From: Xestospongia bergquistia
Taxonomy: Eukaryota; Porifera; Demospongiae; Haplosclerida; Petrosiidae
Length of the DNA: 64,000 nucleotides
Assembly (NCBI GenBank): GCA_963965975.1
Contig: OZ014411.1
Location: forward strand, 16,272,446-16,336,445
Direction: 5' to 3'
The first letter of the stretch is position 1. Every line of letters begins with the position of its first letter. The position numbers and the translations under genes are program-made. The notes under the pieces are model-generated. The model did not search any database. It saw only the letters and a list, made by a program, of their open reading frames with translations, and was not told the DNA's origin. Below are positions 6,340 through 29,938 of the stretch, piece after piece.

Positions 6340-6459
6340 ACTTCAAAAGCGACACTGGGACATTCGTTGGTTACATACTGGGCGTGGTAAACGGAAGACT
6401 ATGTTAATTAATTATTAATTTTGTTGCTATTAAAATCTTGTCCACAGATTACTAACTTC

Positions 6460-7296
6460 ATGACAATGTCACGGATTGTAGTGATGTTCATATCACTGCT
6501 GGTTCTTGTTGTAGGTATGTCATAATAAGTTAATATTGTTGTATAGTTATGTATTATCTTAACAGTACCAAGATGTACTGGAACTAGCATCACTAATTAT
6601 GGCACTGAATTCTACTTTGGATTGTTGAAAAATGCTGGGAGGACAAACGGTCTGTTAGCTCTAGCCATATCTACTACCAGTAATAATGTGTCTGTAAAAA
6701 TCACAACACCTGAGACTACTTTAAACAGATCAATATTATCACCAAATAATGCTCCAATTGTCACTCTCTCTGGCAGCAATGTGGTTTCTGAATCTAGTAC
6801 TTATGATAATCGTAACAGAAATATTCATGTTAGTAGTGATCAACCAATTGCTATGAGTGCATTTAATTGGCTTTCAGGAAGCTGAGGAGAATATCTTGTC
6901 TTACCCTGTCATGATTATAATATCAATAAATATGAATACTATGCATTAGCTGCAACAAGTGTTTTCGGATCAAGTCAAGTACTACTTGTTGGATGTGAAA
7001 ATGACACTAATATTATCATCACTCCATCAAAAACTGTGTCTCTTCCTTCAGATACTCAATCATTTACAGATCAACTTGTAAATGTTTGTAAAGGTACTCC
7101 TCATCACGTTGTTCTTCATCAAGGACAAACTCTTTATTTTGATGCATCATTAATTGATCTTACAGGAACTCACATTGTCTCTAATAAACCATTGACTGTC
7201 ATTAGTGGACATGAATGTGGTCAAATACCACTTGGAGTCGATTATTGTGAACATATGACACAACATATAACATATGCATATTACGGACAGGAGTAA
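6460..7296 (+). pseudogene. IgGFc-binding-protein-like gene, copy 1 (internal TGA)
   Basis: Exon 1 (6460-6514) encodes a signal peptide, MTMSRIVVMFISLLVLVV. A 51-bp GTATGT...AACAG intron (6515-6565) follows. Exon 2 encodes the start of an IgGFc-binding N-terminal domain, with the family landmarks GTEFYFG, AMSAFNWLSGS, FGSSQVLLVGCENDT, IIITPS and THIVSNKPLTVISGHECG. The frame meets TGA at 6883-6885, where units 3-5 have CGT (Arg). CGA to TGA would be a CpG transition. After it the same frame is open to 7296, reaching CEHMTQHI and YGQE. This C-terminal stretch is missing in units 3-5. Without the stop it would be about 276 residues, still shorter than full-length family members. No vWD or TIL modules follow. 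Confidence 0.8.
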
Positions 7297-7897
7297 TAGA
7301 GCGTCTAACTTCATCAGGGGGTGGAGCATCTTCACGACAGAGTACCTCTTCATATGCCATCAAATTAGCCCATAACCACGATTTAGAGGATTGGAACCTA
7401 AATGTACTAATTTCACATTAAAGTATGGCATTCCATTACTGGCACTTTTATACACAGCATGTAACTATTACTACTATATAGCCAGTAATAATTATTATAT
7501 ATAAACAATTCACTCATTAATGGCTATAGTTGGTTACATGTAATGATATACATGTACATGTACATACAGTGTATTACTCTTCTATTAGCAGCTCCATTCT
7601 CTGTTACTAGAGTAGATATCATAGATGTAAAGGACAATGCTACAGCTCCTATTGAATAATGAGCCTAGAGATAGGGTTACTACAGCAACAGTTGTCATAG
7701 TAACAATGTGGTTAATTAATAATAACTTACAACATTTGTAGAAGTGAAGTATTTGAATGAAAGAGAGGGAAATGGAATTTAAAATAGGAGCATAATCAAG
7801 CCACTTTCGGACCTGTTCATGTTTGTATTAAACTTATAAATTGTCTTAACGCTGCTTCTTACACATGGACAATTAAAAAAGGAGTTAAAAAGTAAAG

Positions 7898-8257
7898 ACC
7901 CGCCTACTTTAATGAAGATCCTCAGGGTATTATGTCAATGGTCCAGCTCACTGCAATGCCAGAGGACCAACATTAGGCAAATGGTTGATATTCAAACATA
8001 TCTCCTGTATTGATCAGTTCTGGGAGACAATAAGTCAGACTTTGGTATCTGGTGAATTTGGAGCTACTGCCGCTAAAGTGTCGACAAAGAAAGTCAACCC
8101 AAAATCATTAAAGTGATATTTGTGTATACTACAGCAGAAAAAGTTAATTCCTTATGTAATATGATGTAAAACTTATGCAGAGACTCATGCTTGGAGGTAT
8201 GCTTGTCATGGTGATCGTAGAGTAACGTTGAGAACACTGGAATGGAATAAAGGGTAA
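7898..8257 (+). pseudogene. BLES03/C11orf68-like (DUF1917) remnant, copy 1
   Basis: Plus-strand frames encode GPTLGKWLIFKH, then CIDQFWETI, GEFGATAAKVSTKK and NPKSL, with VIFVYT in a shifted frame. Further on comes TYAETHAWRYA and VTLRTLEWN. The order (G-K-W-x-x-F, W..I....GE.G..AKVST, V.VYT, then a T(Y/F)A..Y block) is that of the BLES03/C11orf68 family, known from memory as putative phosphothreonine-lyase-like proteins. Stops and frame changes show that it is decayed. It may be a remnant of a host gene captured next to the IgGFc-type gene. The family call is from motif order only. Confidence 0.5.
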
Positions 8258-8586
8258 TCCAAAATTTAAAGAGTAATTATTGGATTATTCTTTTAAGACC
8301 AAAGCTTTGTGTATTTTTAATATTTCATATAGACTGGTCCCATTGATCTTGTTTGAAAAGAAATTACTAATGCAGAGATGACTATTGTATGAAAGTAGCA
8401 GTGACAGTATAACTTGACTTGACTTGTACGACAAATGCCAAACACTGTCTGTATTTTAAAATGTATCATTTAATACGATTCCAAATAAAACTGTTTTATT
8501 ACCAAACTTTACATTTTTATATTTACTATAAATAAATTGTATATTTGTTATTTAGACATGTTACTGTATTATACTAGTATATATCA

Positions 8587-8710
8587 TCAAGTAGTAACAC
8601 TTAATATACAGAGAGGAAGATCTTTGAGTTGGAAGTTGACAGTGATTATGCAGTCTCTCTGATCTCTATTGATCTCATCCAGTTTGTTGATATCTTCTGA
8701 GAGTACTGAA
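8587..8710 (-). CDS. Putative terminal exon SVLSEDINKLDEI, unit 1
   Basis: Minus-strand candidate last exon: acceptor TTTTACAAAG, then SVLSEDINKLDEINRDQRD, a hydrophobic stretch and a stop, 40 codons in all. AATAAA-type motifs lie about 80 bp further on this strand. The charged heptad-like start suggests coiled coil. Similar exons occur at 19432-19555, 30275-30398, 41379-41502 and 57565-57688, all open. I do not recognise the protein. It might be the 3' end of the minus-strand coiled-coil gene at 11331-11990. Confidence 0.35.
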
Positions 8711-8921
8711 CTTTGTAAAATACAACAAACAAGTTAAGTGACAAATAAACATTTATTTTGATGATTATAAACAAGAATAAAAAATAATTACCTGAAAAAA
8801 CTTAATTAAAAATAACGCTGAAACAGAAATTAAAATTTCAATTGGTGAAGAGTTCAATCAAAGAAGGTCTGCAGAGAATCTATTACTAGATTATCAGCAC
8901 ACTACTAGAGATGAACAGCAA

Positions 8922-8991
8922 ACGCGTGACCTACCATTATGGCGGGAAAATATGTCATTATGGCGGGAAAACATAACAGCAGCACACGCGT
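8922..8991. promoter_or_regulatory. E2F-like / MluI-box cluster
   Basis: Two direct repeats of CATTATGGCGGGAAAA, 21 bp apart, are flanked on each side by ACGCGT. GGCGGGAAA matches the known E2F site, and ACGCGT is the MluI cell-cycle box of yeast. A further TTTGGCGGGAAA with ACGCGT nearby lies at 10446-10470. Present in all units; unit 4a has lost one of the two repeats. A regulatory role is inferred only. Confidence 0.35.
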
Positions 8992-9719
8992 TCAGCAAAA
9001 AGCTTACAAGAACACCAAAACACTTTTAATAGTTTTTAATTTAATTATTAAAAAAATTAATTAAATAATTTAGCTTTTGGTTAAAAAATAGTAATGATAA
9101 TATCATCTAAAGAGTTAGTAATATCATGATACAATGGTTGTAAAATAATTGATAAGAATTCATTCCATATGATTGTAGTTGTTTAGTAACTAAAGATAAA
9201 AATTGAATTCTAAACTGATTCAGTTTTCGAAGTTATATTAAATCTAGAGTAGAAATTTTATAAGTTGGTGATTACAGAATGAAGTTAAAATATAACTGAG
9301 ATTAAGATAATTGACTTTTGACTAACTTTAGTAAAAAAATTAATATTAATAAATTAAAAACAACATACTAACAAACTATAGAACATGAAAAAAATACAAT
9401 AAAAAAGAAAAAAAATTAAAATAAGACAGTTTTAGTAGTTGAAAGTCCCCAAGAGTCCAGTAACTCCACAAGTAGAGAACATAGAGAAAGAAAGAGAGAG
9501 GTAGTTGTAACAACTGGAATGCTAAAGAGTGAATGAGATGAATGGATGGAGAAATAGCTCACCTTCTTCAAAAGTGCTGCTCCTGCAAGGAAAGAAAAAG
9601 TAGTTATTAACTGAACTGGTGAAGACAATGGATAGGAGTGAAGAGAGACAGAGGAAGTGAAAAGGGACCACCAACACATACACACACAGCACACACACGC
9701 GCGCCCTAGAAGATCAGAG

Positions 9720-9789
9720 CTCCTCCCCGCCACTCGGCGGCCCGAGATATTAAAAAAAATTTTTTAGGCCGCCGAGCGGCAGGGAGGAG
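9720..9789. repeat. GC-rich 23-bp stem hairpin in AT-rich DNA
   Basis: The arms 9720-9742 and 9767-9789 pair over 23 bp with 2 mismatches (CGGCGGCC / GGCCGCCG core), around an AT-rich spacer containing AAAAAATTTTTT. Copies lie at 20565-20634, 31408-31477, 42540-42609, 47797-47867 and 58747-58815. It may be a MITE or a stable RNA hairpin in a minus-strand intron. Confidence 0.75.
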
Positions 9790-9944
9790 ATGATTAATAG
9801 GGTTTGTATGAGTGTGTGTATGATGTATGGGCTGAATAGCCCAAAATAAAATTTAAAAAATAAAAATTAAAAAAAGAAGAGGAAAGAAGGCTTGAGGAAG
9901 ACAGAAGAGACCAAGCAGGAGAGCGACTCATCTTTTACATCCAG

Positions 9945-10066
9945 AGAACGTCAGAGAAGAACAGTCAAGAACATCAGAAGACATCAGAGAAGAACAGTCA
10001 AGAACATCAGAAGACATCAGAGAAGAACAGTCAAGATCATCAGAGAACGCCAGAGAAGAACAGTTG
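9945..10066. repeat. 33-bp minisatellite, unit 1 (about 4 cores)
   Basis: Tandem 33-bp unit containing AGAGAAGAACAGTCAAGAAC. Purine-rich on the plus strand; any reading frame across it gives an 11-residue periodic peptide, which I treat as a by-product. Copy number differs between array units. Confidence 0.85.
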
Positions 10067-10348
10067 AGTCCTGTAGAAACGAAGTGAAAGGAAAACTTTA
10101 TTTAAAAATTCAAAAAATCAAATGACAAAAATTATAAAATAAAACTAAAAAGTTTGAGAGCAAAAAAGAAAAGATAAAGATGACATAACTAAAATGAAAA
10201 AGATGATCCAGCGACGAGAGGTTATCCAACGAAGTACGAGATGATCCAACGATGAGGCGAATCGTAGAGAACATAGAGGAAGAAAGAGAGAGTTATTTGT
10301 AACAACTGCTGAATAGATGTGAGATAGATGGATGGAGAGATAACTCAC

Positions 10349-10405
10349 CTTATAATAAAGGTATGCAAAATGGAGTACTTTTATAATATCAAGAAATCTC
10401 GTCAT
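10349..10405 (-). CDS. Possible first exon MTRFLDIIKVLHFAYLYYK, unit 1
   Basis: A 19-codon minus-strand frame from ATG to a good donor (AAG/GTGAGT). It lies about 40 bp downstream, on the minus strand, of a TTTGGCGGGAAA box that could sit in its promoter. The following intron sequence resembles the sequence after another donor near 9555, where AG/GTGAGC follows a candidate 20-nt exon, so this segment was duplicated locally. Copies: 21194-21250, 32157-32213, 43289-43345, 48447-48503 and 59462-59518. No protein family is recognised. Confidence 0.25.
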
Positions 10406-10976
10406 GCTTCAAATTGACAACCAGTCAACACAAGCTTGTGACAAATTTGGCGGGAAACAAGTACACGCGTGATCAACATTAATTGATTTTTAATTGATTG
10501 GATTAACAACTAATTGAAATCTTCAAAATATACAAGTATTTATAACATTCTACAAGTTGTTAGTAGAAAGAAATATAGTTTTAAAGCAATGTGTATATAC
10601 AATAAAAGGTATAACATATTCTATCAGAAACTTCCAAACTAAACAGTTTAGTGGTTTCAGCTTTTTCTATAATAATATGTTTGTATATATTATGAATTAG
10701 TGAAAGTAGTATAGATATGAAGGAGACAGCTATTGATGTTCAAATGGTTGAAGAGATAAACTAGACACAATATTATCATACCAGTTGTATTATATGTACT
10801 TACCTATAACAATTAAATGGAAGTCGTTTGAATTCTGATTTTTCTACCCTTAGCAGAAGCTGCTGCCTTCATTCTGCCATATATTGTGAACCATTCTCTA
10901 CAAGTGAGGTTATCAGAATAAAAGAGAGGGAAATGGAATTTAAAACTGGAACATATTTAGCTACTTTTATGTGTAC

Positions 10977-11345
10977 CTAGGTACATGTACATATTGTATA
11001 TATGGTAATATTGATATACAAGCTACCCTCAATAGGTACATGTATATGTAATATGGTATGCAAGCTATCCTCGATAGCTATTGAGGACAGCTTCCATACT
11101 GTTATTACCATATTAAATGTGTATGTGCACCTACTGAGGCTAGTTTCCATACTGTATTGCATATACATGTACACCTACTATCATTACCAGATTACATACA
11201 TATGTATATCTATTAAGGATAGTCCCATACTATTACTAACATATTACATGTACAAGTACATGTACTTATTGAGGGTATCTTCCATACCTTTATTACCATA
11301 TTATATGTATATGTATATATACCTATTGAGGTTTGTTTCAAATGT
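10977..11345. repeat. Inverted 42-bp minisatellite, unit 1
   Basis: Degenerate units built on CCTCAATAGGTACATGTATA run in one orientation on the left. After the palindromic centre TCCTCGATAGCTATTGAGGA (about 11070-11090) they run in the opposite orientation. Units 3, 4a, 4b and 5 have one extra left-arm unit. Copies begin near 21822, 32855, 43985, 49070 and 60155. Confidence 0.75.
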
Positions 11346-11990
11346 AGACAGTTTCTCTTGAAATTCTTTATTATTTCTTAGAGAACTCTACAGCATTTTG
11401 ATATAATTTTAATATTTTAGTATAGTGATGTGTTTGTGATATATGTGAGATTGAAAAATAACCTGAAAAGATTAGAACGATAGTTCTGAACCATGAGAAT
11501 CAAATAATGAAATTTATAGAACCAGAATAAAAAAACATGGGAATGAATCATTACTAGCAACACACTTACATTATGTTGGTCATTCTTCATGGTAGCATAC
11601 TTCACTAACTGGTTCTCTAGTGCTGTGATATGATCTTTACGTTCTATGAGTTCTTACTCCTTGGTGCCCAGGACTGAATCTTTAGCCTCTAGAACAGAAT
11701 ATAATTTTTCTATTGTCTCTTTTAGTTTTGTTAGTCTCTTGTCATAGACTGGGTTAGATGACAGCTAAATGGACAAATGTAATGTTGAATGGATGTATAG
11801 TATATTAATGGATGTGTGGTATGTTGAATGGATGTATGATATGTTAACTGGATTCATAGTAGAACATAACAAATGATGAAATGGATTAAGATCTTAACCA
11901 CACCTACCAAACATATGACTTCTAACAGTTTCACTTTCATATTCTTTTAATATTCCTTCTAATCATTTGACATGCCCCTCCCATTGTGCA
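11331..11990 (-). pseudogene. Coiled-coil exons, unit 1
   Basis: The main minus-strand exon is 11570-11764, phase 0 to 0, with TTTAG acceptor and GTAAGT donor. It encodes 65 codons rich in K/E/L: LTKLKETIEKLYSVLEAKDS, then ELIERKDHITALENQLVKY. A TAA interrupts it after GTKE; one change from CAA (Gln) would explain it. All six copies share the stop, so it predates the array. Flanking candidates are about 11906-11970 (LEGILKEYESE) and about 11331-11380 (NNKEFQEKLSTFETN). The protein is coiled-coil and otherwise unrecognised. Confidence 0.5.
11790..11850. repeat. Short 20-21-bp tandem repeat
   Basis: About three degenerate copies of GTTGAATGGATGTATGRTAT, inside the minus-strand coiled-coil region. 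Present in every unit. Confidence 0.6.
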
Positions 11991-12661
11991 GAGACTCATT
12001 CTAAATTAGTTTGAAAACATTTGTTCTCCGCTTACAAAGTAATAACATCAACTTCAGATGATCCCTACAGAAATGGACGCAGCCACATCACGTGACCAGA
12101 TCTTGACAAACTATAACTACCCACTCACATAATGAGAGAAGTACAAGACATATATATTAACTACATGTATTGAGTGAGACATCCACATGTATAGTTGATA
12201 AGAATATTAAAATACCAACAGACACCAATATAACTATACCTGTATATTAGCTTATGAAAACCAGTGTTACCAGTAGTTGCTACAGATGTATTCTGCTTTG
12301 CAGAACTAGTCTAGTGAGGTCATCCCCTTGAGAGACCAAGATAGAACTACATGTAAATAGCAATAATTTCCCACCATTCATGGTTACTTTACCATTTTAT
12401 TTTGAATGGGCAAGATCTCTTATATAGGTCAGTGAATAAATTAGATAAACTTGAACATATTGAATAAAGTTTTTTCCTATATTTATTAGAACAAACCACA
12501 TCAATAATTAGCTCCACCCACCAGACATTACTAATTAATTATTCATAATACTGTTAACAGGCAATAACTCATTACTTTATCACATTGTTTACATCTCCTA
12601 TATCATTCTGTTTGAAAAGTGCATTTATACATATTGAATAAGGTTTTTTCCTCTTTATTAG

Positions 12662-12767
12662 ATATAACTGCTCATATAATGGGTAATGGAGCACAGAAGG
12701 TTGAACTTCTTATTGTTAACAGTAGCCCAAATCATTATTACAAGTTTTATGATATTCAAATGGTCGG
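12662..12767 (+). pseudogene. Plus-strand exon, possibly PARP WGR-domain fragment, unit 1
   Basis: This exon follows TTTTTTCCTCTTTATTAG and ends at a GTATAG donor. It encodes AHIMGNGAQKVELLIVN, then NHYYKFYDIQM. The YYKFY.IQ pattern resembles the start of WGR domains of poly(ADP-ribose) polymerases, but the diagnostic WGR triplet is not present here. A second, similar acceptor segment lies about 170 bp upstream. Copies at 23507, 34595, 45728, 50805 and 61900 have no stop. The strand is opposite to the surrounding EFTUD2-like fragments. Confidence 0.3.
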
Positions 12768-12974
12768 GTATAGATAGATTGACATGTCATGACAAGTCAT
12801 GTGACTATTATATTAACAACATGTTCATCAGGTGACTATGACATGCAAATACAAATTAATACAGTGATAATTAATCTGTCAATATTAATATTAGCATTAA
12901 TTGTAGATCATCACATAGTTAGAGAGCATTACATTGACCATGACATGATTATATAAATAACCACACCTACTGAC

Positions 12975-13730
12975 CTGGAGTGTCATATACATTGATGAGA
13001 CATGACTTGTCTTTAGAATCAAGTGGAACTAATGAGAGGGGCACTCACTTTATACTAACTCCATGCTAGAATTTATATGTTAATTATTGAGGGGGTGGTA
13101 TCTGAAATACTAACCTCTTGTACTGTGAAAAGTGTATCCATATATCTCAACTAATCACAATGAGATGAACTCCTTTAATTATTAATATAATTATACAACT
13201 CATATTTTTATTTCTTCCAACGAACATATTAAGATGAGTCTGTTCAATTAAATAAAAACTTGTCAACAAACAAAACATATAAACATGTACATATTGACAT
13301 GTAACACTTACCTTGTAATGATGATGATGTCCTATAATAGACACATTTTGGATTAACTCTGGACTATCAATTATATCAACTAAAACCTGTCAGACAAGTT
13401 AAAGATTATTTGCAAACCTGTTTAGTTTAATTTATTTTGTATGTTGTTACTACATGGTAACTCCTCCTCTTGGTGAAAAAAAATTCACTTTTTAACAGGA
13501 GCAATGGCTGGTTCTAAAGGAGGTGTGGTCAGGTTACTATAGTAACAAACATAAACTAACCAGTAAGTGGCTTCTTGTATTATCATCTAAAATATGCCCA
13601 AATAAGGTAATAGTCTAATTAATCCTTTCCTCAAGATCAGGTCCATACACTTCTTCAGTTGTTGGATAATAACATTATCTTCAAACAATACAATAGCTTG
13701 TGCTTGTAAATCAAGAGTATCTTCTCAATT
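12975..13730 (-). pseudogene. EFTUD2: EFTUD2 (U5 snRNP GTPase) N-terminal fragment, unit 1
   Basis: EFTUD2/Snu114 is the EF-2-like GTPase of the U5 snRNP. In minus-strand order the fragment keeps: YYPTTEEVYGPDLEE (acidic N-terminal region), EPAIAPVKK, exon 13312-13386 (LVDIIDSPELIQNVSIIG plus HHHHYK, phase 0), FYLIEQTH, MDTLFTVQE, and exon 12975-13065 (VPLDSKDKSCLINVYDTPG, containing the G3 motif). Splice sites flank several pieces, so it arose by genomic duplication, not by retrocopying. The P-loop reads GHHHHYK where the active protein has GHLHHGKT, so nucleotide binding is probably lost. There are stops, including TGA after GVSIK, and a frameshift in the acidic region. Confidence 0.8.
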
Positions 13731-14486
13731 TCCATAACTTGATGTACGTTTTCTGTCAAAATTTTCTATTGTCAAAATTTTAAAAAATCAACAGACAAGC
13801 TTCACAAGAGATGTGTTCAATTTACTTATTTGGTAGGTTTTAAACTTTTAATATTCCACCTCTGACAAATGTATAGTTACAATCTGTAACTTCTATTGTA
13901 TTTAAAATACATAATACTATTAATTAGAGAATACAATAGATTACTTACTCATTGGTATCATCTTTATGTTAGTAAAGTACCTAGTTTTATATTGACCTAT
14001 ATAATTATAATAATATTTATTATTATATGGAATTACACTGTAGTAGTAAAGAATTCATATTTAATATCATCAGTCATGTCCTCTAGTAAATATTGAAATG
14101 TGGAATAAACTACAGTACATGACACACATGTTATGGACAAGGACAGGGGAACTAGTAATTAAGTATAAATGACACACATATGTCCACTAGTATTAATATA
14201 TTCTAATGTTATATGTGATAATTGAAAGGGACAAATTTCAACTACGGGCACAAAATGATGACCAGTCAAAATAATTAGAATTAAAATTTATACATATAAT
14301 GTTATGATGTGTAAATGTATTGTCATTGTAAATGTATTGTCATTAGAATGTTAATGCAAACCAACCTAATTCTAATTGAATTCTAATATTCTTTAATCAT
14401 TCCACTTCTGCCACTCTCCAACTTTTAAAATTCATTGATGTTAGTATAATACAAATCAATTATTTATTAATTATCTTTTTCTACTT

Positions 14487-14581
14487 ACAGTTATTGCTAC
14501 TAACCATAATCTCTAGGAGCTGAAATAGCTGATATATTAATAATAAATGTACCATTGTCATCAACAACATTAAGTTTGTCT
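14487..14581 (-). pseudogene. Unrecognised minus-strand exon candidate, unit 1
   Basis: Flanked by an acceptor (TTTTAG) and a donor (GTAAGT) on the minus strand. One frame reads DKLNVVDDNGTFIINISAIS then APRDYG and a stop; another is leucine-rich and open throughout. Neither continues the INTS2 protein sequence that precedes it. The true frame is undecided. Confidence 0.3.
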
Positions 14582-14745
14582 CTAAAATATAAAAGAGAAT
14601 AGAGATAGTAGTATTGCAAAGTTGAATATTTACCAAGGTCCTAGGCCTAGTTTAATGTTATGACATCATTCAGTATTTGCATAGATTACTGTAGGAATTA
14701 TAACAACTATAATCTAACTATTCTAGATTGATTCACTTGTCTAAC

Positions 14746-15459
14746 CTAATTCTAACTGTGGTTGAGTCAGGAGTTCAGATATCAAGTCCATCACTATATG
14801 CATTGTTGGAACACCAGACACTATTAATGGTAACAACTATGGAGGATAGCTTTAAAAATGAATTAGTTTGACCATACTGGGTTCAGGAATGAAAATATGT
14901 AATCACAACAACAATAATAAAAATTCTCTCTCTCTCCAAACCTTATGAAGGTATGAACAAACTAAACACTGGATATTTCAAAGTGATGTTAGACCAAAAA
15001 CAGCTATATCCTATATGACAGATAAACTATGATATGGCATGGATACTATAGGAATAAGATGGGATTGAGACTAGACAGTATTATATTGAGAATGTACAGT
15101 ATGGGAGTGAGACTGTATGGTATGGGATTAAAACATACAATATAGAAATGACACTAGACATATTGGGAGTGAGACTAGGAATTGAAACCTGAAGATAATT
15201 CAACACTGCTATGTTTATACAATTAATAATGTGGACTAGTTCTAATAGTCATATACACCTGAAGACTGATGAGTTAGTGATTAAAATACTTAAATGGATT
15301 TCAAAGACTGCAGAACATCTGGAACAAAATAACAAAGACTTGAATTTATGAGAATCAGTCTTGTCTACATACCTGAAAACATGAGTATCACATTTAAATA
15401 CAATTATAACAGATCGTCAATGAGATTTTGGTGAAGTATTTGTTGTTTCATCCAGTCCT
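14746..15459 (-). pseudogene. INTS2: INTS2 (Integrator subunit 2) fragments, unit 1
   Basis: INTS2 is a subunit of the Integrator complex, which cleaves nascent snRNAs and other transcripts. Two minus-strand exons are colinear with the human protein. Exon 15373-15459 (CAG acceptor, GTATGT donor) reads DWMKQQILHQNLIDDLL then LYLNVIL, matching the DWIYRQL...LIDVYINSIL region. Exon 14746-14836 (91 nt, CATAG acceptor, GTTAGA donor) reads LLPLIVSGVPTMHIVMDL then ISELLTQPQLEL, closely matching LLPLTVAGIPSMHICLDFIP. The first exon has a stop after DDLL. Only two blocks remain of a protein of roughly 1,200 residues. Confidence 0.65.
15045..15180. repeat. Degenerate tandem repeat with GGGAGTGAGACT motif
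   Basis: Several imperfect copies of a unit containing TGGGAGTGAGACTAGACA and TATGGGATT. Present in units 1, 2, 3 and 4b. Confidence 0.5.
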
Positions 15460-15600
15460 CTGAAAGACATAGAAAATAAGAGATAAATTATACAAAAAAG
15501 AGAAGAATAAATAGTCTGGTAACCTTTTTGATTTTCTGCTATAAATTTATTTCTATATTTATATCAGAAACTAATTAATCAATAAGATAACGGGGGTTAC

Positions 15601-15692
15601 CTCTTGATTGGTGTAGTAGCAAAACATTTTAAAGATGAAGTTTCTATAACTGTTTCACAAAATGTAACCACCAGATCAGCCACTTTTAATAT
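15601..15692 (-). pseudogene. EFTUD2: EFTUD2 C-terminal-half exon, unit 1
   Basis: Minus-strand exon between a TTAG acceptor and a GTAACC donor. It encodes [18 protein letters not shown] then [10 protein letters not shown], matching [18 protein letters not shown] / LKCFAETPNK of EFTUD2 (domain IV region). It is open in this unit. On this strand it lies upstream of the INTS2 and EFTUD2 N-terminal fragments, so the EFTUD2 pieces are in reversed order relative to the protein. Confidence 0.8.
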
Positions 15693-15974
15693 CTAATGAG
15701 AAGGAATGATTAACACATGTAGTGAACTTTTATGGTTAAAGAAATCAGGTCCTATTTACATATTATTATAATTTAAATAAAGTAACTAATAGTGTGTGGC
15801 TTAGTATTAATTGTAGATAGTACAGTGTTCCAAACAACACTGTTAGTAATCATGTCTGTAATATTGACCTTAGTCCTAATAAAAAGAACACCATTGACTA
15901 CATAAAAATTTTAAAAATTACACTGACTGAAGTAATTCGTCTTCTTCTCATTTTTACCAATATTGATAAACTTG

Positions 15975-17183
15975 TTTATTTGATAAGAGGATGGCCACAA
16001 AGGATTGTCATACTACAGGATCTACAACTTCCTGTCCCAATAAGAAACTTCCTCCACTTGTTTCATCTCTTTCATCTAGTTCATCTTTTGTCACCTTATC
16101 AGAAGAAGTGGTAACTATAGTATGCTGAATTTAATCCCAAATAAAATATATAGTGACTTCTGGAACACTCTAGTATATTAAAACTCAAAATAAAATTTAA
16201 AAAAACAAAAAAAATGGACAATATCAACTTAAAGTACAACATTTGAAATTGTTTACTTACAGATTCTCAATACTTGACAAAACCTTCTGGTCCATATAAC
16301 AAAGACAGCAACTTGGATCTCTATAAAAAGTAATAGTTGAGATTTAGAATGCTATATTAAATTTACAGAACATATCAGTGTCTCCTTGTTACTATCTTGA
16401 CATACTATCATTGGTTTAGTAACACAAGAACTAATACAGTTCTTAATATTGGATAACAAAGGGAACAAGAGTGAAAGAAAGAGAGAGAGAGAGGGGGGGG
16501 GGGGAGGGGGGAAGAGAGATAAAGTGAGCTAGAGGGAGAGATTGTTCTATAGAAATGTATCTACACACTTACTGTCTCCATTTGCTTTATAGAGTGAGCG
16601 ATTCCTTTTGAAACTCCAAATAATGTCAATACATCATTCACACCTGTATACAATAACATAACAATAAACATTAGTTTTATCTATTGTCTATGTATTAAGT
16701 ACACTGATATTAGCTGAACCTTTTAATTTTCTAGACACTCTTTCTCCAATAATAAATCTCTCAATACTGTCATCGTCCTCTGTATGAGCTAATCATTTAG
16801 TACAGTGAAATCTATACAAACAGTAAACCAGTTATTGTTGTACTTGATGATTAGTCTTGTTATTAGTTTAACAGAAGTTTATAAGAAATACCTATAAAAA
16901 CAAAATGAGTTAATATAACATAATATATGGAGCTCATAACTTTAACTAATACAATGTAATATTATTAAGACATGACTAAATGTCTACTATAGTATTAAGT
17001 AACCTCTAATTGATGATGTCTCCTAGTATAATTATTGTAATGACATAGTTTGTACTAAAATCTATTAAGAATATAGTGATGACCATATTTAATACATACT
17101 TGTGTCTCTGAAAGCTGATGTGAGCAGTTAAAATCTCCAACAAACAAAAACAAGAGATGAAATAACAACTGTTCTTTCTCATC
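15975..17183 (-). pseudogene. Phase-consistent unrecognised exon set A-E, unit 1
   Basis: Minus-strand exons: A 17100-17183 (DEKEQLLFHLLFLFVGDF, 28 codons), B 16720-16788 (EDDDSIERFIIGERVSRKLK), C 16573-16643 (VNDVLTLFGVSKGIAHSIKQ), D 16261-16320 (RSKLLSLLYGPEGFVKY), and E near 16110-15975 (VTKDELDERDETSGGSFLLG). B to C to D to E join in consistent phase (1, 0, 0), with standard splice sites. This argues for a real ancestral gene. D has TGA in unit 1 where the other units have TTA (Leu); E has a stop in all copies. Exon A has phases that do not join B directly. I do not recognise the protein. Confidence 0.5.
16474..16521. repeat. (AG)n-(G)n tract
   Basis: An AG dinucleotide run merges into a poly-G run (GGGGGGGGGGGAGGGGGG-like) in the intron between exons C and D. 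Lengths differ between units (near 27311, 38417 and 54601). Poly-G of this length could form G-quadruplexes. Confidence 0.85.
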
Positions 17184-17304
17184 CTCAGTCAGCAAGAAAG
17201 TATACTTACAATAATTGTGTATAAAATAAGGATGATATTTACATACCAAATATGGTCATTAATATATGAGTACCTGTATAAGTTTGTATTAGATAGAAAA
17301 TTTC

Positions 17305-18141
17305 ATGACAATGTCACGGATTGTAGTGCAGTTCATATCACTGCTGGTTCTTGTTGTAGGTATGTCATAATGAGTTAATATTGTTGTATAGTTATGTATT
17401 TTCTTAACAGTACCAAGATGTACTGGAACTAACATCAATAATTATGGAACTGAGTTCTACTTTGGATTGTTGAAAAATGCTGGAAGGGCAAGCAGTCTGT
17501 TAGCTCTGGCCATATCTACTACCAGTATTAATGTGTCTGTAAAGATCACAATACCTGAGACTACTTTAAACATATCAATATTATCACCAAATAATGCTCC
17601 AATTGTCACTCTCTCTGGCAGCAATGTGGTTTCTGAATCTAGTACTTATGATAATCGTAACAGAAATATTCATGTTAGTAGTGATCAACCAATTGCTATG
17701 AGTGCATTTAATTGGCTTTCAGGAAGCTGAGGAGAATATCTTGTCTTACCCTGTCATGATTATAATATCAATAAATATGAATACTATGCATTAGCTGCAA
17801 CAAGTGTTTTCGGATCAAGTCAAGTACTACTTGTTGGATGTGAAAATGACACTAATATTATCATCACTCCATCAAAAACTGTGTCTCTTCCTTCAGATAC
17901 TCAATCATTTACAGATCAACTTGTAAATGTTTGTAAAGGTACTCCTCATCACGTTGTTCTTCATCAAGGACAAACTCTTTATTTTGATGCATCATTAATT
18001 GATCTTACAGGAACTCACATTGTCTCTAATAAACCATTGACTGTCATTAGTGGACATGAATGTGGTCAAATACCACTTGGAGTCGATTATTGTGAACATA
18101 TGACACAACATATAACATATGCATATTACGGACAGGAGTAA
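17305..18141 (+). pseudogene. IgGFc-binding-protein-like gene, copy 2 (internal TGA)
   Basis: Same two-exon structure as copy 1: exon 1 is 17305-17359, the intron 17360-17410, and exon 2 starts at 17411. The signal peptide reads MTMSRIVVQFISLLVLVV. The same TGA (17728-17730) replaces the Arg codon, and the frame then stays open to 18141 with CEHMTQHI and YGQE. Exon 2 near its start resembles units 3-5 (AGRASS, INVSVKIT) and not unit 1 (AGRTNG, NNVSVKIT). The copy is therefore mosaic: unit-3-like at the 5' end and unit-1-like beyond. Confidence 0.8.
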
Positions 18142-18742
18142 TAGAGCGTCTAACTTCGTCAGGGGGTGGAGCATCTTCACGACAGAGTACCTCTTCATAT
18201 GCCATCAAATTAGCCCATAACCACGATTTAGAGGATTGGAACCTAAATGTACTAATTTCACATTAAAGTATGGCATTCCATTACTGGCACTTTTATACAC
18301 AGCATGTAACTATTACTACTATATAGCCAGTAATAATTATTATATATAAACAATTCACTCATTAATGGCTATAGTTGGTTACATGTAATGATATACATGT
18401 ACATGTACATACAGTGTATTACTCTTCTATTAGCAGCTCCATTCTCTGTTACTAGAGTAGATATCATAGATGTAAAGGACAATGCTACAGCTCCTATTGA
18501 ATAATGAGCCTAGAGATAGGGTTACTACAGCAACAGTTGTCATAGTAACAATGTGGTTAATTAATAATAACTTACAACATTTGTAGAAGTGAAGTATTTG
18601 AATGAAAGAGAGGGAAATGGAATTTAAAATAGGAGCATAATCAAGCCACTTTCGGACCTGTTCATGTTTGTATTAAACTTATAAATTGTCTTAACGCTGC
18701 TTCTTACACATGGACAATTAAAAAAGGAGTTAAAAAGTAAAG

Positions 18743-19102
18743 ACCCGCCTACTTTAATGAAGATCCTCAGGGTATTATGTCAATGGTCCAGCTCACTGCA
18801 ATGCCAGAGGACCAACATTAGGCAAATGGTTGATATTCAAACATATCTCCTGTATTGATCAGTTCTGGGAGACAATAAGTCAGACTTTGGTATCTGGTGA
18901 ATTTGGAGCTACTGCCGCTAAAGTGTCGACAAAGAAAGTCAACCCAAAATCATTAAAGTGATATTTGTGTATACTACAGCAGAAAAAGTTAATTCCTTAT
19001 GTAATATGATGTAAAACTTATGCAGAGACTCATGCTTGGAGGTATGCTTGTCATGGTGATCGTAGAGTAACGTTGAGAACACTGGAATGGAATAAAGGGT
19101 AA
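18743..19102 (+). pseudogene. BLES03/C11orf68-like remnant, copy 2
   Basis: Sequence and breaks as in copy 1, including GKWLIFKH, GEFGATAAKVSTKK and the shifted VIFVYT. No difference that would restore the frame. Confidence 0.5.
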
Positions 19103-20789
19103 TCCAAAATTTAAAGAGTAATTATTGGATTATTCTTTTAAGACCAAAGCTTTGTGTATTTTTAATATTTCATATAGACTGGTCCCATTGATCTTGTTTG
19201 AAAAGAAATTACTAATGCAGAGATGACTATTGTATGAAAGTAGCAGTGACAGTATAACTTGACTTGACTTGTACGACAAATGCCAAACACCGTCTGTACT
19301 TTAAAATGTATCATTTAATACGATTCCAAATAAAACTGTTTTATTACCAAACTTTACATTTTTATATTTACTATAAATAAATTGTATATTTGTTATTTAG
19401 ACATGTTACTGTATTATACTAGTATATATCATCAAGTAGTAACACTTAATATACAGAGAGGAAGATCTTTGAGTTGGAAGTTGACAGTGATTATGCAGTC
19501 TCTCTGATCTCTATTGATCTCATCCAGTTTGTTGATATCTTCTGAGAGTACTGAACTTTGTAAAATACAACAAACAAGTTAAGTGACAAATAAACATTTA
19601 TTTTGATGATTATAAACAAGAATAAAAAATAATTACCTGAAAAAACTTAATTAAAAATAACGCTGAAACAGAAATTAAAATTTCAATTGGTGAAGAGTTC
19701 AATCAAAGAAGGTCTGCAGAGAATCTATTACTAGATTATCAGCACACTACTAGAGATGAACAGCAAACGCGTGACCTACCATTATGGCGGGAAAATATGT
19801 CATTATGGCGGGAAAACATAACAGCAGCACACGCGTTCAGCAAAAAGCTTACAAGAACACCAAAACACTTTTAATAGTTTTTAATTTAATTATTAAAAAA
19901 ATTAATTAAATAATTTAGCTTTTGGTTAAAAAATAGTAATGATAATATCATCTAAAGAGTTAGTAATATCATGATACAATGGTTGTAAAATAATTGATAA
20001 GAATTCATTCCATATGATTGTAGTTGTTTAGTAACTAAAGATAAAAATTGAATTCTAAACTGATTCAGTTTTCGAAGTTATATTAAATCTAGAGTAGAAA
20101 TTTTATAAGTTGGTGATTACAGAATGAAGTTAAAATATAACTGAGATTAAGATAATTGACTTTTGACTAACTTTAGTAAAAAAATTAATATTAATAAATT
20201 AAAAACAACATACTAACAAACTATAGAACATGAAAAAAATACAATAAAAAAGAAAAAAAATTAAAATAAGACAGTTTTAGTAGTTGAAAGTCCCCAAGAG
20301 TCCAGTAACTCCACAAGTAGAGAACATAGAGAAAGAAAGAGAGAGGTAGTTGTAACAACTGGAATGCTAAAGAGTGAATGAGATGAATGGATGGAGAAAT
20401 AGCTCACCTTCTTCAAAAGTGCTGCTCCTGCAAGGAAAGAAAAAGTAGTTATTAACTGAACTGGTGAAGACAATGGATAGGAGTGAAGAGAGACAGAGGA
20501 AGTGAAAAGGGACCACCAACACATACACACACAGCACACACACGCGCGCCCTAGAAGATCAGAGCTCCTCCCCGCCACTCGGCGGCCCGAGATATTAAAA
20601 AAAATTTTTTAGGCCGCCGAGCGGCAGGGAGGAGATGATTAATAGGGTTTGTATGAGTGTGTGTATGATGTATGGGCTGAATAGCCCAAAATAAAATTTA
20701 AAAAATAAAAATTAAAAAAAGAAGAGGAAAGAAGGCTTGAGGAAGACAGAAGAGACCAAGCAGGAGAGCGACTCATCTTTTACATCCAG

Positions 20790-20911
20790 AGAACGTCAGA
20801 GAAGAACAGTCAAGAACATCAGAAGACATCAGAGAAGAACAGTCAAGAACATCAGAAGACATCAGAGAAGAACAGTCAAGATCATCAGAGAACGCCAGAG
20901 AAGAACAGTTG
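20790..20911. repeat. 33-bp minisatellite, unit 2 (about 4 cores)
   Basis: Same number and sequence of cores as unit 1. Confidence 0.85.
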
Positions 20912-22175
20912 AGTCCTGTAGAAACGAAGTGAAAGGAAAACTTTATTTAAAAATTCAAAAAATCAAATGACAAAAATTATAAAATAAAACTAAAAAGTTT
21001 GAGAGCAAAAAAGAAAAGATAAAGATGACATAACTAAAATGAAAAAGATGATCCAGCGACGAGAGGTTATCCAACGAAGTACGAGATGATCCAACGATGA
21101 GGCGAATCGTAGAGAACATAGAGGAAGAAAGAGAGAGTTATTTGTAACAACTGCTGAATAGATGTGAGATAGATGGATGGAGAGATAACTCACCTTATAA
21201 TAAAGGTATGCAAAATGGAGTACTTTTATAATATCAAGAAATCTCGTCATGCTTCAAATTGACAACCAGTCAACACAAGCTTGTGACAAATTTGGCGGGA
21301 AACAAGTACACGCGTGATCAACATTAATTGATTTTTAATTGATTGGATTAACAACTAATTGAAATCTTCAAAATATACAAGTATTTATAACATTCTACAA
21401 GTTGTTAGTAGAAAGAAATATAGTTTTAAAGCAATGTGTATATACAATAAAAGGTATAACATATTCTATCAGAAACTTCCAAACTAAACAGTTTAGTGGT
21501 TTCAGCTTTTTCTATAATAATATGTTTGTATATATTATGAATTAGTGAAAGTAGTATAGATATGAAGGAGACAGCTATTGATGTTCAAATGGTTGAAGAG
21601 ATAAACTAGACACAATATTATCATACCAGTTGTATTATATGTACTTACCTATAACAATTAAATGGAAGTCGTTTGAATTCTGATTTTTCTACCCTTAGCA
21701 GAAGCTGCTGCCTTCATTCTGCCATATATTGTGAACCATTCTCTACAAGTGAGGTTATCAGAATAAAAGAGAGGGAAATGGAATTTAAAACTGGAACATA
21801 TTTAGCTACTTTTATGTGTACCTAGGTACATGTACATATTGTATATATGGTAATATTGATATACAAGCTACCCTCAATAGGTACATGTATATGTAATATG
21901 GTATGCAAGCTATCCTCGATAGCTATTGAGGACAGCTTCCATACTGTTATTACCATATTAAATGTGTATGTGCACCTACTGAGGCTAGTTTCCATACTGT
22001 ATTGCATATACATGTACACCTACTATCATTACCAGATTACATACATATGTATATCTATTAAGGATAGTCCCATACTATTACTAACATATTACATGTACAA
22101 GTACATGTACTTATTGAGGGTATCTTCCATACCTTTATTACCATATTATATGTATATGTATATATACCTATTGAG

Positions 22176-22835
22176 GTTTGTTTCAAATGTAGACAGTTTC
22201 TCTTGAAATTCTTTATTATTTCTTAGAGAACTCTACAGCATTTTGATATAATTTTAATATTTTAGTATAGTGATGTGTTTGTGATATATGTGAGATTGAA
22301 AAATAACCTGAAAAGATTAGAACGATAGTTCTGAACCATGAGAATCAAATAATGAAATTTATAGAACCAGAATAAAAAAACATGGGAATGAATCATTACT
22401 AGCAACACACTTACATTATGTTGGTCATTCTTCATGGTAGCATACTTCACTAACTGGTTCTCTAGTGCTGTGATATGATCTTTACGTTCTATGAGTTCTT
22501 ACTCCTTGGTGCCCAGGACTGAATCTTTAGCCTCTAGAACAGAATATAATTTTTCTATTGTCTCTTTTAGTTTTGTTAGTCTCTTGTCATAGACTGGGTT
22601 AGATGACAGCTAAATGGACAAATGTAATGTTGAATGGATGTATAGTATATTAATGGATGTGTGGTATGTTGAATGGATGTATGATATGTTAACTGGATTC
22701 ATAGTAGAACATAACAAATGATGAAATGGATTAAGATCTTAACCACACCTACCAAACATATGACTTCTAACAGTTTCACTTTCATATTCTTTTAATATTC
22801 CTTCTAATCATTTGACATGCCCCTCCCATTGTGCA
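22176..22835 (-). pseudogene. Coiled-coil exons, unit 2
   Basis: The main exon, 22415-22609, has the same 65 codons and shared TAA as unit 1. The upstream LEGILKEYESE candidate keeps the unit-1 form of its 3' end. Confidence 0.5.
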
Positions 22836-23819
22836 GAGACTCATTCTAAATTAGTTTGAAAACATTTGTTCTCCGCTTACAAAGTAATAACATCAACTTC
22901 AGATGATCCCTACAGAAATGGACGCAGCCACATCACGTGACCAGATCTTGACAAACTATAACTACCCACTCACATAATGAGAGAAGTACAAGACATATAT
23001 ATTAACTACATGTATTGAGTGAGACATCCACATGTATAGTTGATAAGAATATTAAAATACCAACAGACACCAATATAACTATACCTGTATATTAGCTTAT
23101 GAAAACCAGTGTTACCAGTAGTTGCTACAGATGTATTCTGCTTTGCAGAACTAGTCTAGTGAGGTCATCCCCTTGAGAGACCAAGATAGAACTACATGTA
23201 AATAGCAATAATTTCCCACCATTCATGGTTACTTTACCATTTTATTTTGAATGGGCAAGATCTCTTATATAGGTCAGTGAATAAATTAGATAAACTTGAA
23301 CATATTGAATAAAGTTTTTTCCTATATTTATTAGAACAAACCACATCAATAATTAGCTCCACCCACCAGACATTACTAATTAATTATTCATAATACTGTT
23401 AACAGGCAATAACTCATTACTTTATCACATTGTTTACATCTCCTATATCATTCTGTTTGAAAAGTGCATTTATACATATTGAATAAGGTTTTTTCCTCTT
23501 TATTAGATATAACTGCTCATATAATGGGTAATGGAGCACAGAAGGTTGAACTTCTTATTGTTAACAGTAGCCCAAATCATTATTACAAGTTTTATGATAT
23601 TCAAATGGTCGGGTATAGATAGATTGACATGTCATGACAAGTCATGTGACTATTATATTAACAACATGTTCATCAGGTGACTATGACATGCAAATACAAA
23701 TTAATACAGTGATAATTAATCTGTCGATATTAATATTAGCATTAATTGTAAATCATCACATAGTTAGAGAGCATTACATTGACCATGACATGATTATATA
23801 AATAACCACACCTACTGAC

Positions 23820-24575
23820 CTGGAGTGTCATATACATTGATGAGACATGACTTGTCTTTAGAATCAAGTGGAACTAATGAGAGGGGCACTCACTTTATAC
23901 TAACTCCATGCTAGAATTTATATGTTAATTATTGAGGGGGTGGTATCTGAAATACTAACCTCTTGTACTGTGAAAAGTGTATCCATATATCTCAACTAAT
24001 CACAATGAGATGAACTCCTTTAATTATTAATATAATTATACAACTCATATTTTTATTTCTTCCAACGAACATATTAAGATGAGTCTGTTCAATTAAATAA
24101 AAACTTGTCAACAAACAAAACATATAAACATGTACATATTGACATGTAACACTTACCTTGTAATGATGATGATGTCCTATAATAGACACATTTTGGATTA
24201 ACTCTGGACTATCAATTATATCAACTAAAACCTGTCAGACAAGTTAAAGATTATTTGCAAACCTGTTTAGTTTAATTTATTTTGTATGTTGTTACTACAT
24301 GGTAACTCCTCCTCTTGGTGAAAAAAAATTCACTTTTTAACAGGAGCAATGGCTGGTTCTAAAGGAGGTGTGGTCAGGTTACTATAGTAACAAACATAAA
24401 CTAACCAGTAAGTGGCTTCTTGTATTATCATCTAAAATATGCCCAAATAAGGTAATAGTCTAATTAATCCTTTCCTCAAGATCAGGTCCATACACTTCTT
24501 CAGTTGTTGGATAATAACATTATCTTCAAACAATACAATAGCTTGTGCTTGTAAATCAAGAGTATCTTCTCAATT
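23820..24575 (-). pseudogene. EFTUD2: EFTUD2 N-terminal fragment, unit 2
   Basis: Same pieces and order as unit 1, including SPELIQNVSIIG with HHHHYK, LIEQTH, DTLFTVQE and INVYDTPG. The stop after GVSIK is present. Confidence 0.8.
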
Positions 24576-25590
24576 TCCATAACTTGATGTACGTTTTCTG
24601 TCAAAATTTTCTATTGTCAAAATTTTAAAAAATCAACAGACAAGCTTCACAAGAGATGTGTTCAATTTACTTATTTGGTAGGTTTTAAACTTTTAATATT
24701 CCACCTCTGACAAATGTATAGTTACAATCTGTAACTTCTATTGTATTTAAAATACATAATACTATTAATTAGAGAATACAATAGATTACTTACTCATTGG
24801 TATCATCTTTATGTTAGTAAAGTACCTAGTTTTATATGGACCTATATAATTATAATAATATTTATTATTATATGGAATTACACTGTAGTAGTAAAGAATT
24901 CATATTTAATATCATCAGTCATGTCCTCTAGTAAATATTGAAATGTGGAATAAACTACAGTACATGACACACATGTTATGGACAAGGACAGGGGAACTAG
25001 TAATTAAGTATAAATGACACACATATGTCCACTAGTATTAATATATTCTAATGTTATATGTGATAATTGAAAGGGACAAATTTCAACTACGGGCACAAAA
25101 TGATGACCAGTCAAAATAATTAGAATTAAAATTTATACATGTAATGTTATGATGTGTAAATGTATTGTCATTGTAAATGTATTGTCATTAGAATGTTAAT
25201 GCAAACCAACCTAATTCTTATTGAATTCTAATATTCTTTAATCATTCCACTTCTGCCACTCTCCAACTTTTAAAATTCATTGATGTTAGTATAATACAAA
25301 TCAATTATTTATTAATTATCTTTTTCTACTTACAGTTATTGCTACTAACCATAATCTCTAGGAGCTGAAATAGCTGATATATTAATAATAAATGTACCAT
25401 TGTCATCAACAACATTAAGTTTGTCTCTAAAATATAAAAGAGAATAGAGATAGTAGTATTGCAAAGTTGAATATTTACCAAGGTCCTAGGCCTAGTTTAA
25501 TGTTATGACATCATTCAGTATTTGCATAGATTACTGTAGGAATTATAACAACTATAATCTAACTATTCTAGATTGATTCACTTGTCTAAC

Positions 25591-26305
25591 CTAATTCTAA
25601 CTGTGGTTGAGTCAGGAGTTCAGATATCAAGTCCATCACTATATGCATTGTTGGAACACCAGACACTATTAATGGTAACAACTATGGAGGATAGCTTTAA
25701 AAATGAATTAGTTTGACCATACTGGGTTCAGGAATGAAAATATGTAATCACAACAACAATAATAAAAATTCTCTCTCTCTCCAAACCTTATGAAGGTATG
25801 AACAAACTAAACACTGGATATTTCAAAGTGATGTTAGACCAAAAACAGCTATATCCTATATGACAGATAAACTATGATATGGCATGGATACTATAGGAAT
25901 AAGATGGGATTGAGACTAGACAGTATTATATTGAGAATGTACAGTATGGGAGTGAGACTGTATGGTATGGGATTAAAACATACAATATAGAAATGACACT
26001 AGACATATTGGGAGTGAGACTAGGAATTGAATACCTGAAGATAATTCAACACTGCTATGTTTATACAATTAATAATGTGGACTAGTTCTAATAGTCATAT
26101 ACACCTGAAGACTGATGAGTTAGTGATTAAAATACTTAAATGGATTTCAAAGACTGCAGAACATCTGGAACAAAATAACAAAGACTTGAATTTATGAGAA
26201 TCAGTCTTGTCTACATACCTGAAAACATGAGTATCACATTTAAATACAATTATAATAGATCGTCAATGAGATTTTGGTGAAGTATTTGTTGTTTCATCCA
26301 GTCCT
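25591..26305 (-). pseudogene. INTS2: INTS2 fragments, unit 2
   Basis: Exons 26219-26305 (DWMKQQILHQN) and 25591-25681 (LLPLIVSGVPTMHIVMDL). The first reads DDLL then a stop, as in unit 1; the second is open. Confidence 0.65.
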
Positions 26306-26446
26306 CTGAAAGACATAGAAAATAAGAGATAAATTATACAAAAAAGAGAAGAATAAATAGTCTGGTAACCTTTTTGATTTTCTGCTATAAATTTATTTCT
26401 ATATTTATATCAGAAACTAATTAATCAATAAAATGACGGGGGTTAC

Positions 26447-26530
26447 CTCTTGATTGGTGTAGTAGCAAAACATTTTAAAGATGAAGTTTCTATAACTGTT
26501 TCACAAAACCAGATCAGCCACTTTTAATAT
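26447..26530 (-). pseudogene. EFTUD2: EFTUD2 C-terminal-half exon, unit 2
   Basis: As in unit 1 ([19 protein letters not shown]) but with a 9-bp in-frame deletion that removes part of the VVTF stretch. Unit 4b has the same deletion; units 1 and 3 do not. Confidence 0.75.
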
Positions 26531-26819
26531 CTAATGATAAGGAATAATTAACACATGTAGTGAACTTTTATGGTTAAAGAAATCAGGTCCTATTTACATA
26601 TTATTATAATTTAAATAAAGTAACTAATAGTGTGTGGCTTAGTATTAATTGTAGATAGTACAGTGTTCCAAACAACACTGTTAGTAATCATGTCTGTAAT
26701 ATTGACCTTAGTCCTAATAAAAAGAACACCATTGACTACATAAAAATTTTAAAAATTACACTGACTGAAGTAATTCGTCTTCTTCTCATTTTTACCAATA
26801 TTGATAAACTTGTTTATTT

Positions 26820-28021
26820 GACAAGAGGATGGTCACAAAGGATTGTCATACTACAGGATCTACAACTTCCTGTCCCAATAAGAAACTTCTTCCACTTGTT
26901 TCATCTCTTTCATCTAGTTCATCTTTTGTCACCTTATCAGAAGAAGTGGTAACTATAGCATGCTGAATTTAATCCCAAATAAAATATATAGTGACTTCTG
27001 GAACACTCTAGTATATTAAAACTCAAAATAAAACTTAAAAAAACAAAAAAATGGACAATATCAACTTAAAGTACAACATTTGAAATTGTTTACTTACAGA
27101 TTCTAAATACTTGACAAAACCTTCTGGTCCATATAACAAAGACAGCAACTTGGATCTCTATAAAAAGTAATAGTTGAGATTTAGAATGCTATATTAAATT
27201 TACAGAACATATCAGTGTCTCCTTGTTACTATCTTGACATACTATCATTGGTTTAGTAACACAAGAACTAATACAGTTCTTAATATTGGATAACAAAGGG
27301 AACAAGAGTGAAAGAAAGAGAGAGAGAGAGAGGGGGGGGGGGAGGGGGGAAGAGAGATAAAGTGAGCTAGAGGGAGAGATTGTTCTATAGAAATGTATCT
27401 ACACACTTACTGTCTCCATTTGCTTTATAGAGTGAGCGATTCCTTTTGAAACTCCAAATAATGTCAATACATCATTCACACCTGTATATAATAACATAAC
27501 AATAAACATTAGTTTTATCTATTGTCTATGTACTAAGTACACTGATATTAGCTGAACCTTTTAATTTTCTAGACACTCTTTCTCCAATAATAAATCTCTC
27601 AATACTGTCATCGTCCTCTGTATGAGCTAATCATTTAGTACAGTGAAATCTATACAAACAGTAAACCAGTTATTGTTGTACTTGATGATTAGTCTTGTTA
27701 TTAGTTTAACAGAAGTTTATAAGAAATACCTATAAAAACAAAATGAGTTAATATAACATAATATATGGAGCTCATAACTTTAACTAATACAATGTAATAT
27801 TATTAAGACATGACTAAATGTCTACTATAGTATTAAGTAACCTCTAATTGATGATGTCTCCTAGTATAATTATTGTAATGACATAGTTTGTACTAAAATC
27901 TATTAAGAATATAGTGATGACCATATTTAATACATACTTGTGTCTCTGAAAGCTGATGTGAGCAGTTAAAATCTCCAACAAACAAAAACAAGAGATGAAA
28001 TAACAACTGTTCTTTCTCATC
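26820..28021 (-). pseudogene. Unrecognised exon set A-E, unit 2
   Basis: Same exons as unit 1; A is 27938-28021. Exon D here is open (EGFVKYLES), unlike unit 1. Exon E still carries its shared stop. Confidence 0.5.
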
Positions 28022-28142
28022 CTCAGTCAGCAAGAAAGTATACTTACAATAATTGTGTATAAAATAAGGATGATATTTACATACCAAATATGGTCATTAA
28101 TATATGAGTACCTGTATAAGTTTGTATTAGATAGAAAATTTC

Positions 28143-28939
28143 ATGACAATGTCACGGATTGTAGTGAAGTTCATATCACTGCTGGTTCTTGTTGTAGGTA
28201 TGTCATAATGAGTTAATATTGTTGTATAGTTATGTATTTTCTTAACAGTACCAAGATGTACTGGAACTAACATCAATAATTATGGAACTGAGTTCTACTT
28301 TGGATTGTTGAAAAATGCTGGAAGGGCAAGCAGTCTGTTAGCTCTGGCCATATCTACTACCAGTATTAATGTGTCTGTAAAGATCACAATACCTGAGACT
28401 ACTTTAAACATATCAATATTATCACCAAATAATGCTCCAATTGTCACTCTCTCTGGCAGCAATGTGGTTTCTGAATCTAGTACTTATGATAATCGTAACA
28501 GAAATATTCATGTTAGTAGTGATCAACCAATTGCTATGAGTGCATTTAATTGGCTTTCAGGAAGCCGTGGAGAATATCTTGTCTTACTTGTCATGATTAT
28601 AATATTAATAAATATGAATACTATGCAGTAACTCCAAGAAGTGTTTTCGGATCAAGCCAAGTACTACTTGTTGGATGTGAAAATGACACTAATATTATCA
28701 TCACTCCATCAGAAGCTGTGTCTCTTCCTTCAGATACTCAATCATCTACAGATCAACTTGTAAATGTTTCTAAACGTACTCCTCATCACGTTGTTCTTCA
28801 TCAAGGGCAAACTCTTTATTTTGATGCATCATTAATTTATCTTACAGGAACTCACATTGTCTCTAATAAACCATTGACTGTCATTAGTGGACATGAATGT
28901 GGTCAAATACACTTGGAGTCGATTATTGTGAACATATGA
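28143..28939 (+). pseudogene. IgGFc-binding-protein-like gene, copy 3 (1-nt deletion)
   Basis: Exon 1 is 28143-28197 (MTMSRIVVKFISLLVLVV), the intron 28198-28248, and exon 2 starts at 28249. The Arg codon replaces the TGA of copies 1-2 (SGSRGEYLV). A 1-nt deletion near 28587, in the run encoding LVLPCHDY, shifts the frame: the first frame ends at 28631. The rest of the domain (FGSSQVLLVGCENDT, THIVSNKPLTVISGHECG) is in the next frame and ends at 28939. It also carries the C-terminal 1-nt deletion of units 4a and 5, which gives HLESIIVNI. Apart from these it is very close to copy 5. Confidence 0.8.
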
Positions 28940-29580: not shown

Positions 29581-29938
29581 ACCCGCCTACTTTAATGAAG
29601 ATCCTCAGGGTATTATGTCAATGGTCCAGCTCACTGCAATGCCAGAGGACCAACATTAGGCAAATGGTTGATATTCAAACATATCTCCTGTATTGATCAG
29701 TTCTGGGAGACAATAAGTCAGACTTTGGTATCTGGTGAATTTGGAGCTACTGCCGCTAAAGTGTCGACAAAGAAAGTCAACCCAAAATCATTAAAGTGAT
29801 ATTTGTGTATACTACAGCAGAATAAGTTAATTCCTTATGTAATATGATGTAAAACTTATGCAGAGAATCATTCTTGGAGGTATGCTTGTCATGGTGATCA
29901 TAGAGTAACGTTGAGGACACTGGAATGGAATAAAGGTA
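29581..29938 (+). pseudogene. BLES03/C11orf68-like remnant, copy 3
   Basis: Same blocks as copy 1, with an additional stop in the VIFVYTTAE stretch (GCAGAATAAG) and R to H in the HGDH region. Further decayed. Confidence 0.5.

Follow-up and report, generated by a model that had tools for sequence, protein, structure and literature searches.

Putative EFTUD2 and INTS2 relics carried in a tandem array of Xestospongia bergquistia

The window, a stretch of 64,000 nucleotides of contig OZ014411.1 from the sponge Xestospongia bergquistia, carries pieces of two genes, EFTUD2 and INTS2, on its minus strand between positions 12975 and 15692 (Table 1). A six-frame reading of 12901-15900 (minus strand) was used for protein searches, with stops entered as X. 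Searches by tblastn with human sequences led to the same places as PDB and Pfam (PF14750) searches, and the strong matches lie far above shuffles. With the real proteins, the best scores on bases 1-17300 were 59.5 bits for EFTUD2 and 76.7 bits for INTS2; the maxima of the shuffle control on the same bases (n=20 each) were 26.7 and 25.0 bits, and the reversed-sequence control gave 22.8 and 21.5 bits, respectively. The homology to both proteins is beyond chance, as it is in duplicated pseudogenes. An earlier note, made from the sequence alone, had named these two parents and had placed the pieces on one strand, in the minus-strand order EFTUD2 domain IV, INTS2, EFTUD2 N-terminus. Both statements hold.

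Table 1. Coordinates of the array, of the putative relics and of other exon-like features. A tilde on an EFTUD2 N-terminal piece marks an end that no splice site fixes.
Feature	Position	Strand	Evidence or remark
Tandem array	6454..64000	.	6 head-to-tail copies; self-blastn and unit alignment
U1	6454-17298		
U2	17299-28136		
U3	28137-39240		
U4	39241-~46855		truncated
U5	~46856-55425		rearranged join with U4; without IgGFc part
U6	55426-64000		incomplete; window end cuts unit
Signal-peptide-like exon and IgGFc-binding-domain relic	6454..7300	+	PF17517
Bles03 (C11orf68-like) relic	7960..8120	+	PF08939; 5 copies
Coiled-coil-like exon piece	11565-11770	-	at 6 places in window
EFTUD2 N-terminal and G-domain relic, about aa 55-205	12975..13723	-	PDB, tblastn; five or six exon pieces
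EFTUD2 N-terminal pieces	13723-~13630, 13586-~13449, 13386-13312, 13258-~13200, 13150-13115, 13065-12975	-	
Candidate INTS2 relic, about aa 1050-1096	14036..14197	-	tblastn, weak
INTS2 relic, about aa 979-1044	14750..14992	-	Pfam, PDB, tblastn; strong
INTS2 relic exon, about aa 838-861, frame broken	15373..15459	-	weak alone
EFTUD2 domain-IV relic exon, about aa 648-681	15601..15692	-	PDB phmmer, tblastn
Exon-like pieces, descending from 17183, 16792, 16643, 16320 and 16120	15985..17190	-	

The INTS2 piece covering residues 979-1044 matches PF14750 with an E of 6.1e-17, above the curated cut-off, and PDB chain 7cun_B (Integrator subunit 2) with an E of 1.3e-12. It was found by blastn at four places in the window; in-frame stops are present in all four copies, and one of them has lost a further 8 bases. 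The claim that two colinear INTS2 exons lie here stands firmly for this piece and less so for the other, in which tblastn aligned 12 residues (850-861) at an E of 4.9 under one of three scorings. We accept this second piece, also present at four places (blastn), as an INTS2 exon because it is colinear with the first, can be read by eye in two frames and is flanked by splice dinucleotides. The candidate at residues 1050-1096 is possibly another INTS2 piece; its E was 0.039, 0.46 or 0.90 depending on which of three tblastn scorings was used, it gave no Pfam match when scanned by itself, and blastn placed it at five positions in the window. Between the INTS2 pieces, an open exon-like piece with a good acceptor (14505-14581, minus strand) showed no family match.

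The EFTUD2 domain-IV exon matches the human 116 kDa U5 snRNP component, with a best E of 3.6e-7 among nine PDB chains (phmmer), and is 80% identical to the human sequence across 30 residues (tblastn, E 7.5e-10). Its frame is broken close to the exon start. The exon is present at four places in the window (blastn); the frame break occurs in all of these copies and an extra 8-bp deletion in two. In PDB, the best four of eight chains matched the N-terminal and G-domain pieces at E values from 8.1e-6 to 1.3e-5; linked, the pieces gave a tblastn E of 8.8e-13 with the human query. They were found at six places (blastn). A frame break and an altered P-loop motif, in which the P-loop glycine is replaced by tyrosine, are common to all six copies. 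Four of the six, U1 among them, carry a stop in the last of these pieces, at a site where U3 and U4 read cysteine. Pfam did not detect the EFTUD2 relics on the minus strand of 12901-15900, even in short frames.

An AG precedes and a GT follows five of the pieces: the EFTUD2 domain-IV exon, the INTS2 exon of residues 838-861, and the EFTUD2 N-terminal pieces at 13386-13312, 13150-13115 and 13065-12975. The remaining pieces have an acceptor alone or no clear splice site. The retained splice dinucleotides indicate that the pieces are DNA-level, intron-bearing copies. Thus, the earlier view that they are genomic rather than processed copies is borne out, and a processed (retro) origin was rejected because the introns are retained. 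Judged from their sequence, the EFTUD2 and INTS2 pieces look like pseudogene relics, apparently dead, because they carry frameshifts, stops and an altered P-loop. Disabling lesions and retained introns with splice sites, two of the features by which duplicated pseudogenes are recognised, were both found.

The region lies in U1, the first unit of a tandem array revealed by self-blastn of the window. Full units are 10.8-11.1 kb long and identity between copies is about 95-99%; the weakest same-strand segment listed is 94.8% over 1293 bp. Most lesions are common to every copy that holds the piece, which indicates that most of the decay preceded the amplification. Lesions that are not universal, among them the EFTUD2 stop that U3 and U4 lack, indicate that some decay took place during or after it. 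Homogenisation of the array is patchy. In the unit alignment, U3 and U6 have 0 differing sites in each of five windows from 6454 to 8953, and U1 and U3 differ at 8-24 sites in the same five windows. Between U1 and U2, 18 of the 500 sites of the first window are different, against 0-6 in each later window. Because this difference is concentrated in the first window, position 6454 appears to be a genuine, less homogenised left edge of the array. The INTS2 piece of residues 979-1044 has 0/243, 0/243 and 0/235 differing sites in three comparisons between copies. The windows neighbouring the relic pieces also show few differences between copies (unit alignment), so this comparison argues neither for nor against constraint on the pieces. 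Directly left of the array lies an EGF-like exon (6211-6303, plus strand; FXa_inhibition, E 1.7e-5, below the curated cut-off). Within the array, a 33-bp minisatellite at 9951-10064 and in its copies has 3.5 to 6.5 copies depending on the unit, and 11000-11301 is an imperfect inverted-repeat block, possibly a small foldback element.

Besides EFTUD2 and INTS2, the unit carries fragments of other genes. The IgGFc-binding fragment matches PF17517 with an E of 8.8e-22 in short frames and 1.2e-20 in long frames. It is broken by stops or frame changes in all five copies read: one stop is common to U1 and U2, and different breaks are found in U3, U4 and U6. The Bles03 fragment matches PF08939 (E 4.7e-6 in short and 1.7e-5 in long frames) and has a frame change downstream. 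Splice-like starts are seen in three of the exon-like pieces at 15985-17190, which had no Pfam match and a best PDB E of 0.17; one frame of 15700-17700 was without PDB match, and NCBIfam searches found nothing in one frame of 15700-17699 or in three of 10900-12900. The coiled-coil-like piece had a best PDB E of 0.68 and no Pfam match in short-frame scans. Scanned by itself, it hit RNase_Y_N at an E of 0.001, below the curated cut-off; we read this as coiled-coil similarity. Apart from IgGFc, Bles03 and INTS2, Pfam returned one mucin-like match on 6454-17500 (E 0.077, below cut-off), and Rfam returned nothing at gathering score. Frame length matters in these scans: Pfam frames of about 3000 residues miss INTS2 (0 families on repeat) and a 999-residue frame finds it, and bases 1-6453 were scanned in long frames only. 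The unit is a patchwork of broken fragments from at least four gene families.

It is highly probable that the EFTUD2 and INTS2 pieces are non-functional relics, copied at the DNA level, decayed, and then multiplied as passengers in the tandem array. The identities, the lesions, the tandem copies and the lesions common to copies were directly established, and the following course may be proposed to connect them. Parts of EFTUD2 and INTS2 would have been copied with their introns into one locus, and internal deletions and point decay would have cut the copies up at breakpoints lying within introns or other non-coding sequence. A block of about 10.8 kb holding the relics and the other gene fragments would then have been amplified, presumably by unequal crossing-over, and gene conversion would have partly homogenised the copies. 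The patchy identity between copies supports this step of amplification and gene conversion. The relics would be passengers that probably have no function.

Two known kinds of sequence resemble this arrangement. Like duplicated (non-processed) pseudogenes, the relics are DNA-level copies with introns, splice dinucleotides, stops and frame breaks, but they juxtapose pieces of two parents and only parts of each parent are found. Like macrosatellites, or tandem segmental duplications under concerted evolution, the array consists of head-to-tail units of about 11 kb with about 95-99% identity and patchy homogenisation; several kilobase-scale head-to-tail copies of high identity, which define this class, are present. 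Unlike macrosatellites, the unit is a mosaic of broken fragments from at least four gene families, with no intact gene shown. The array is probably an ordinary relic patchwork that hitchhikes in a macrosatellite-like segmental duplication.

The order of the pieces bears on their origin. The earlier note called them scrambled. The linear order is as it claimed, but the units are joined head to tail without a fixed start, so the linear order is not fully informative, and around the unit the minus-strand circular order is EFTUD2 N-terminus, EFTUD2 domain IV, INTS2. This is compatible with an unscrambled EFTUD2-then-INTS2 arrangement. Such an arrangement would follow if the parents were head-to-tail neighbours on the same strand, with EFTUD2 upstream, and if their region was duplicated and shrunk by deletions into a unit that is circularly permuted, with nothing scrambled. 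The gap between the domain-IV exon and the first INTS2 exon is just 141 bp (15600-15460), which fits a single deletion across a gene boundary. Human EFTUD2 and INTS2 both lie on chromosome 17, which also counts for neighbouring parents. However, three same-strand pieces can form two circular orders only, each with a chance of one half; about 8.1 kb with other gene fragments separate the EFTUD2 N-terminal pieces from the next domain-IV exon; and the genuine-looking left edge at 6454 would make the scrambled phase ancestral. Neighbouring parents are a tentative explanation that we hold to be rather doubtful. Should the parents turn out to be neighbours in this genome, the relic would preserve a trace of local gene order. 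The unusual order of the pieces probably arose as a side effect of duplication and decay.

A gene-capturing transposon, similar to a Helitron or a Pack element, might instead have gathered intron-bearing fragments mostly on one strand. The unit is like the products of such capture in being a mosaic, where fragments of several unrelated genes lie together with their introns, several of them in the same orientation. It differs in that no element protein and no framing terminal repeats were found. Pfam detected no transposon domain in one unit (6454-17500, six frames, pieces of 549-1183 residues), and among the seven pairs of short inverted repeats (20-51 nt) found at 6300-17600, none frames the unit. 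These results weigh little, as Pfam missed the EFTUD2 relics and a decayed element could escape as well. We regard capture by a transposon as unlikely.

Tandem arrays are difficult to assemble, and U4 and U5 are rearranged, which might suggest that the array or the joins between fragments were misassembled. Substitutions and indels distinguish the copies from one another, and the order of pieces is constant among the copies that hold them. These observations make an assembly artefact very improbable. It is hardly credible that minus-strand transcription of the array yields chimeric, spliced EFTUD2-INTS2 RNAs which act on the two parents, for instance by giving rise to small RNAs, with the pairing under selection. 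The earlier note had pointed out that both parents act on snRNA or splicing; we found no support for anything beyond coincidence in this pairing, because the unit also carries the unrelated IgGFc-binding-domain and Bles03 fragments.

The preferred reading, relics multiplied as passengers, means that the array shows housekeeping-gene relics carried and multiplied inside tandem repeats. It also calls for caution, since a "scrambled" exon order in an array may be apparent only where the unit has no fixed start. Among the literature matches listed, none concerned EFTUD2/INTS2 relics or such an array, and exact phrases were also without match. Animal genes are not expected in prokaryote or viral contigs. 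When contigs of prokaryote genomes were searched for relatives, the INTS2 relic had 164 pattern matches, none of which was confirmed; in viral contigs, part of human EFTUD2 had two, neither confirmed. A distant relative of the IgGFc stretch is encoded in an IMG/VR contig (L001, 5001-5183), with 34% identity over query residues 39-105.
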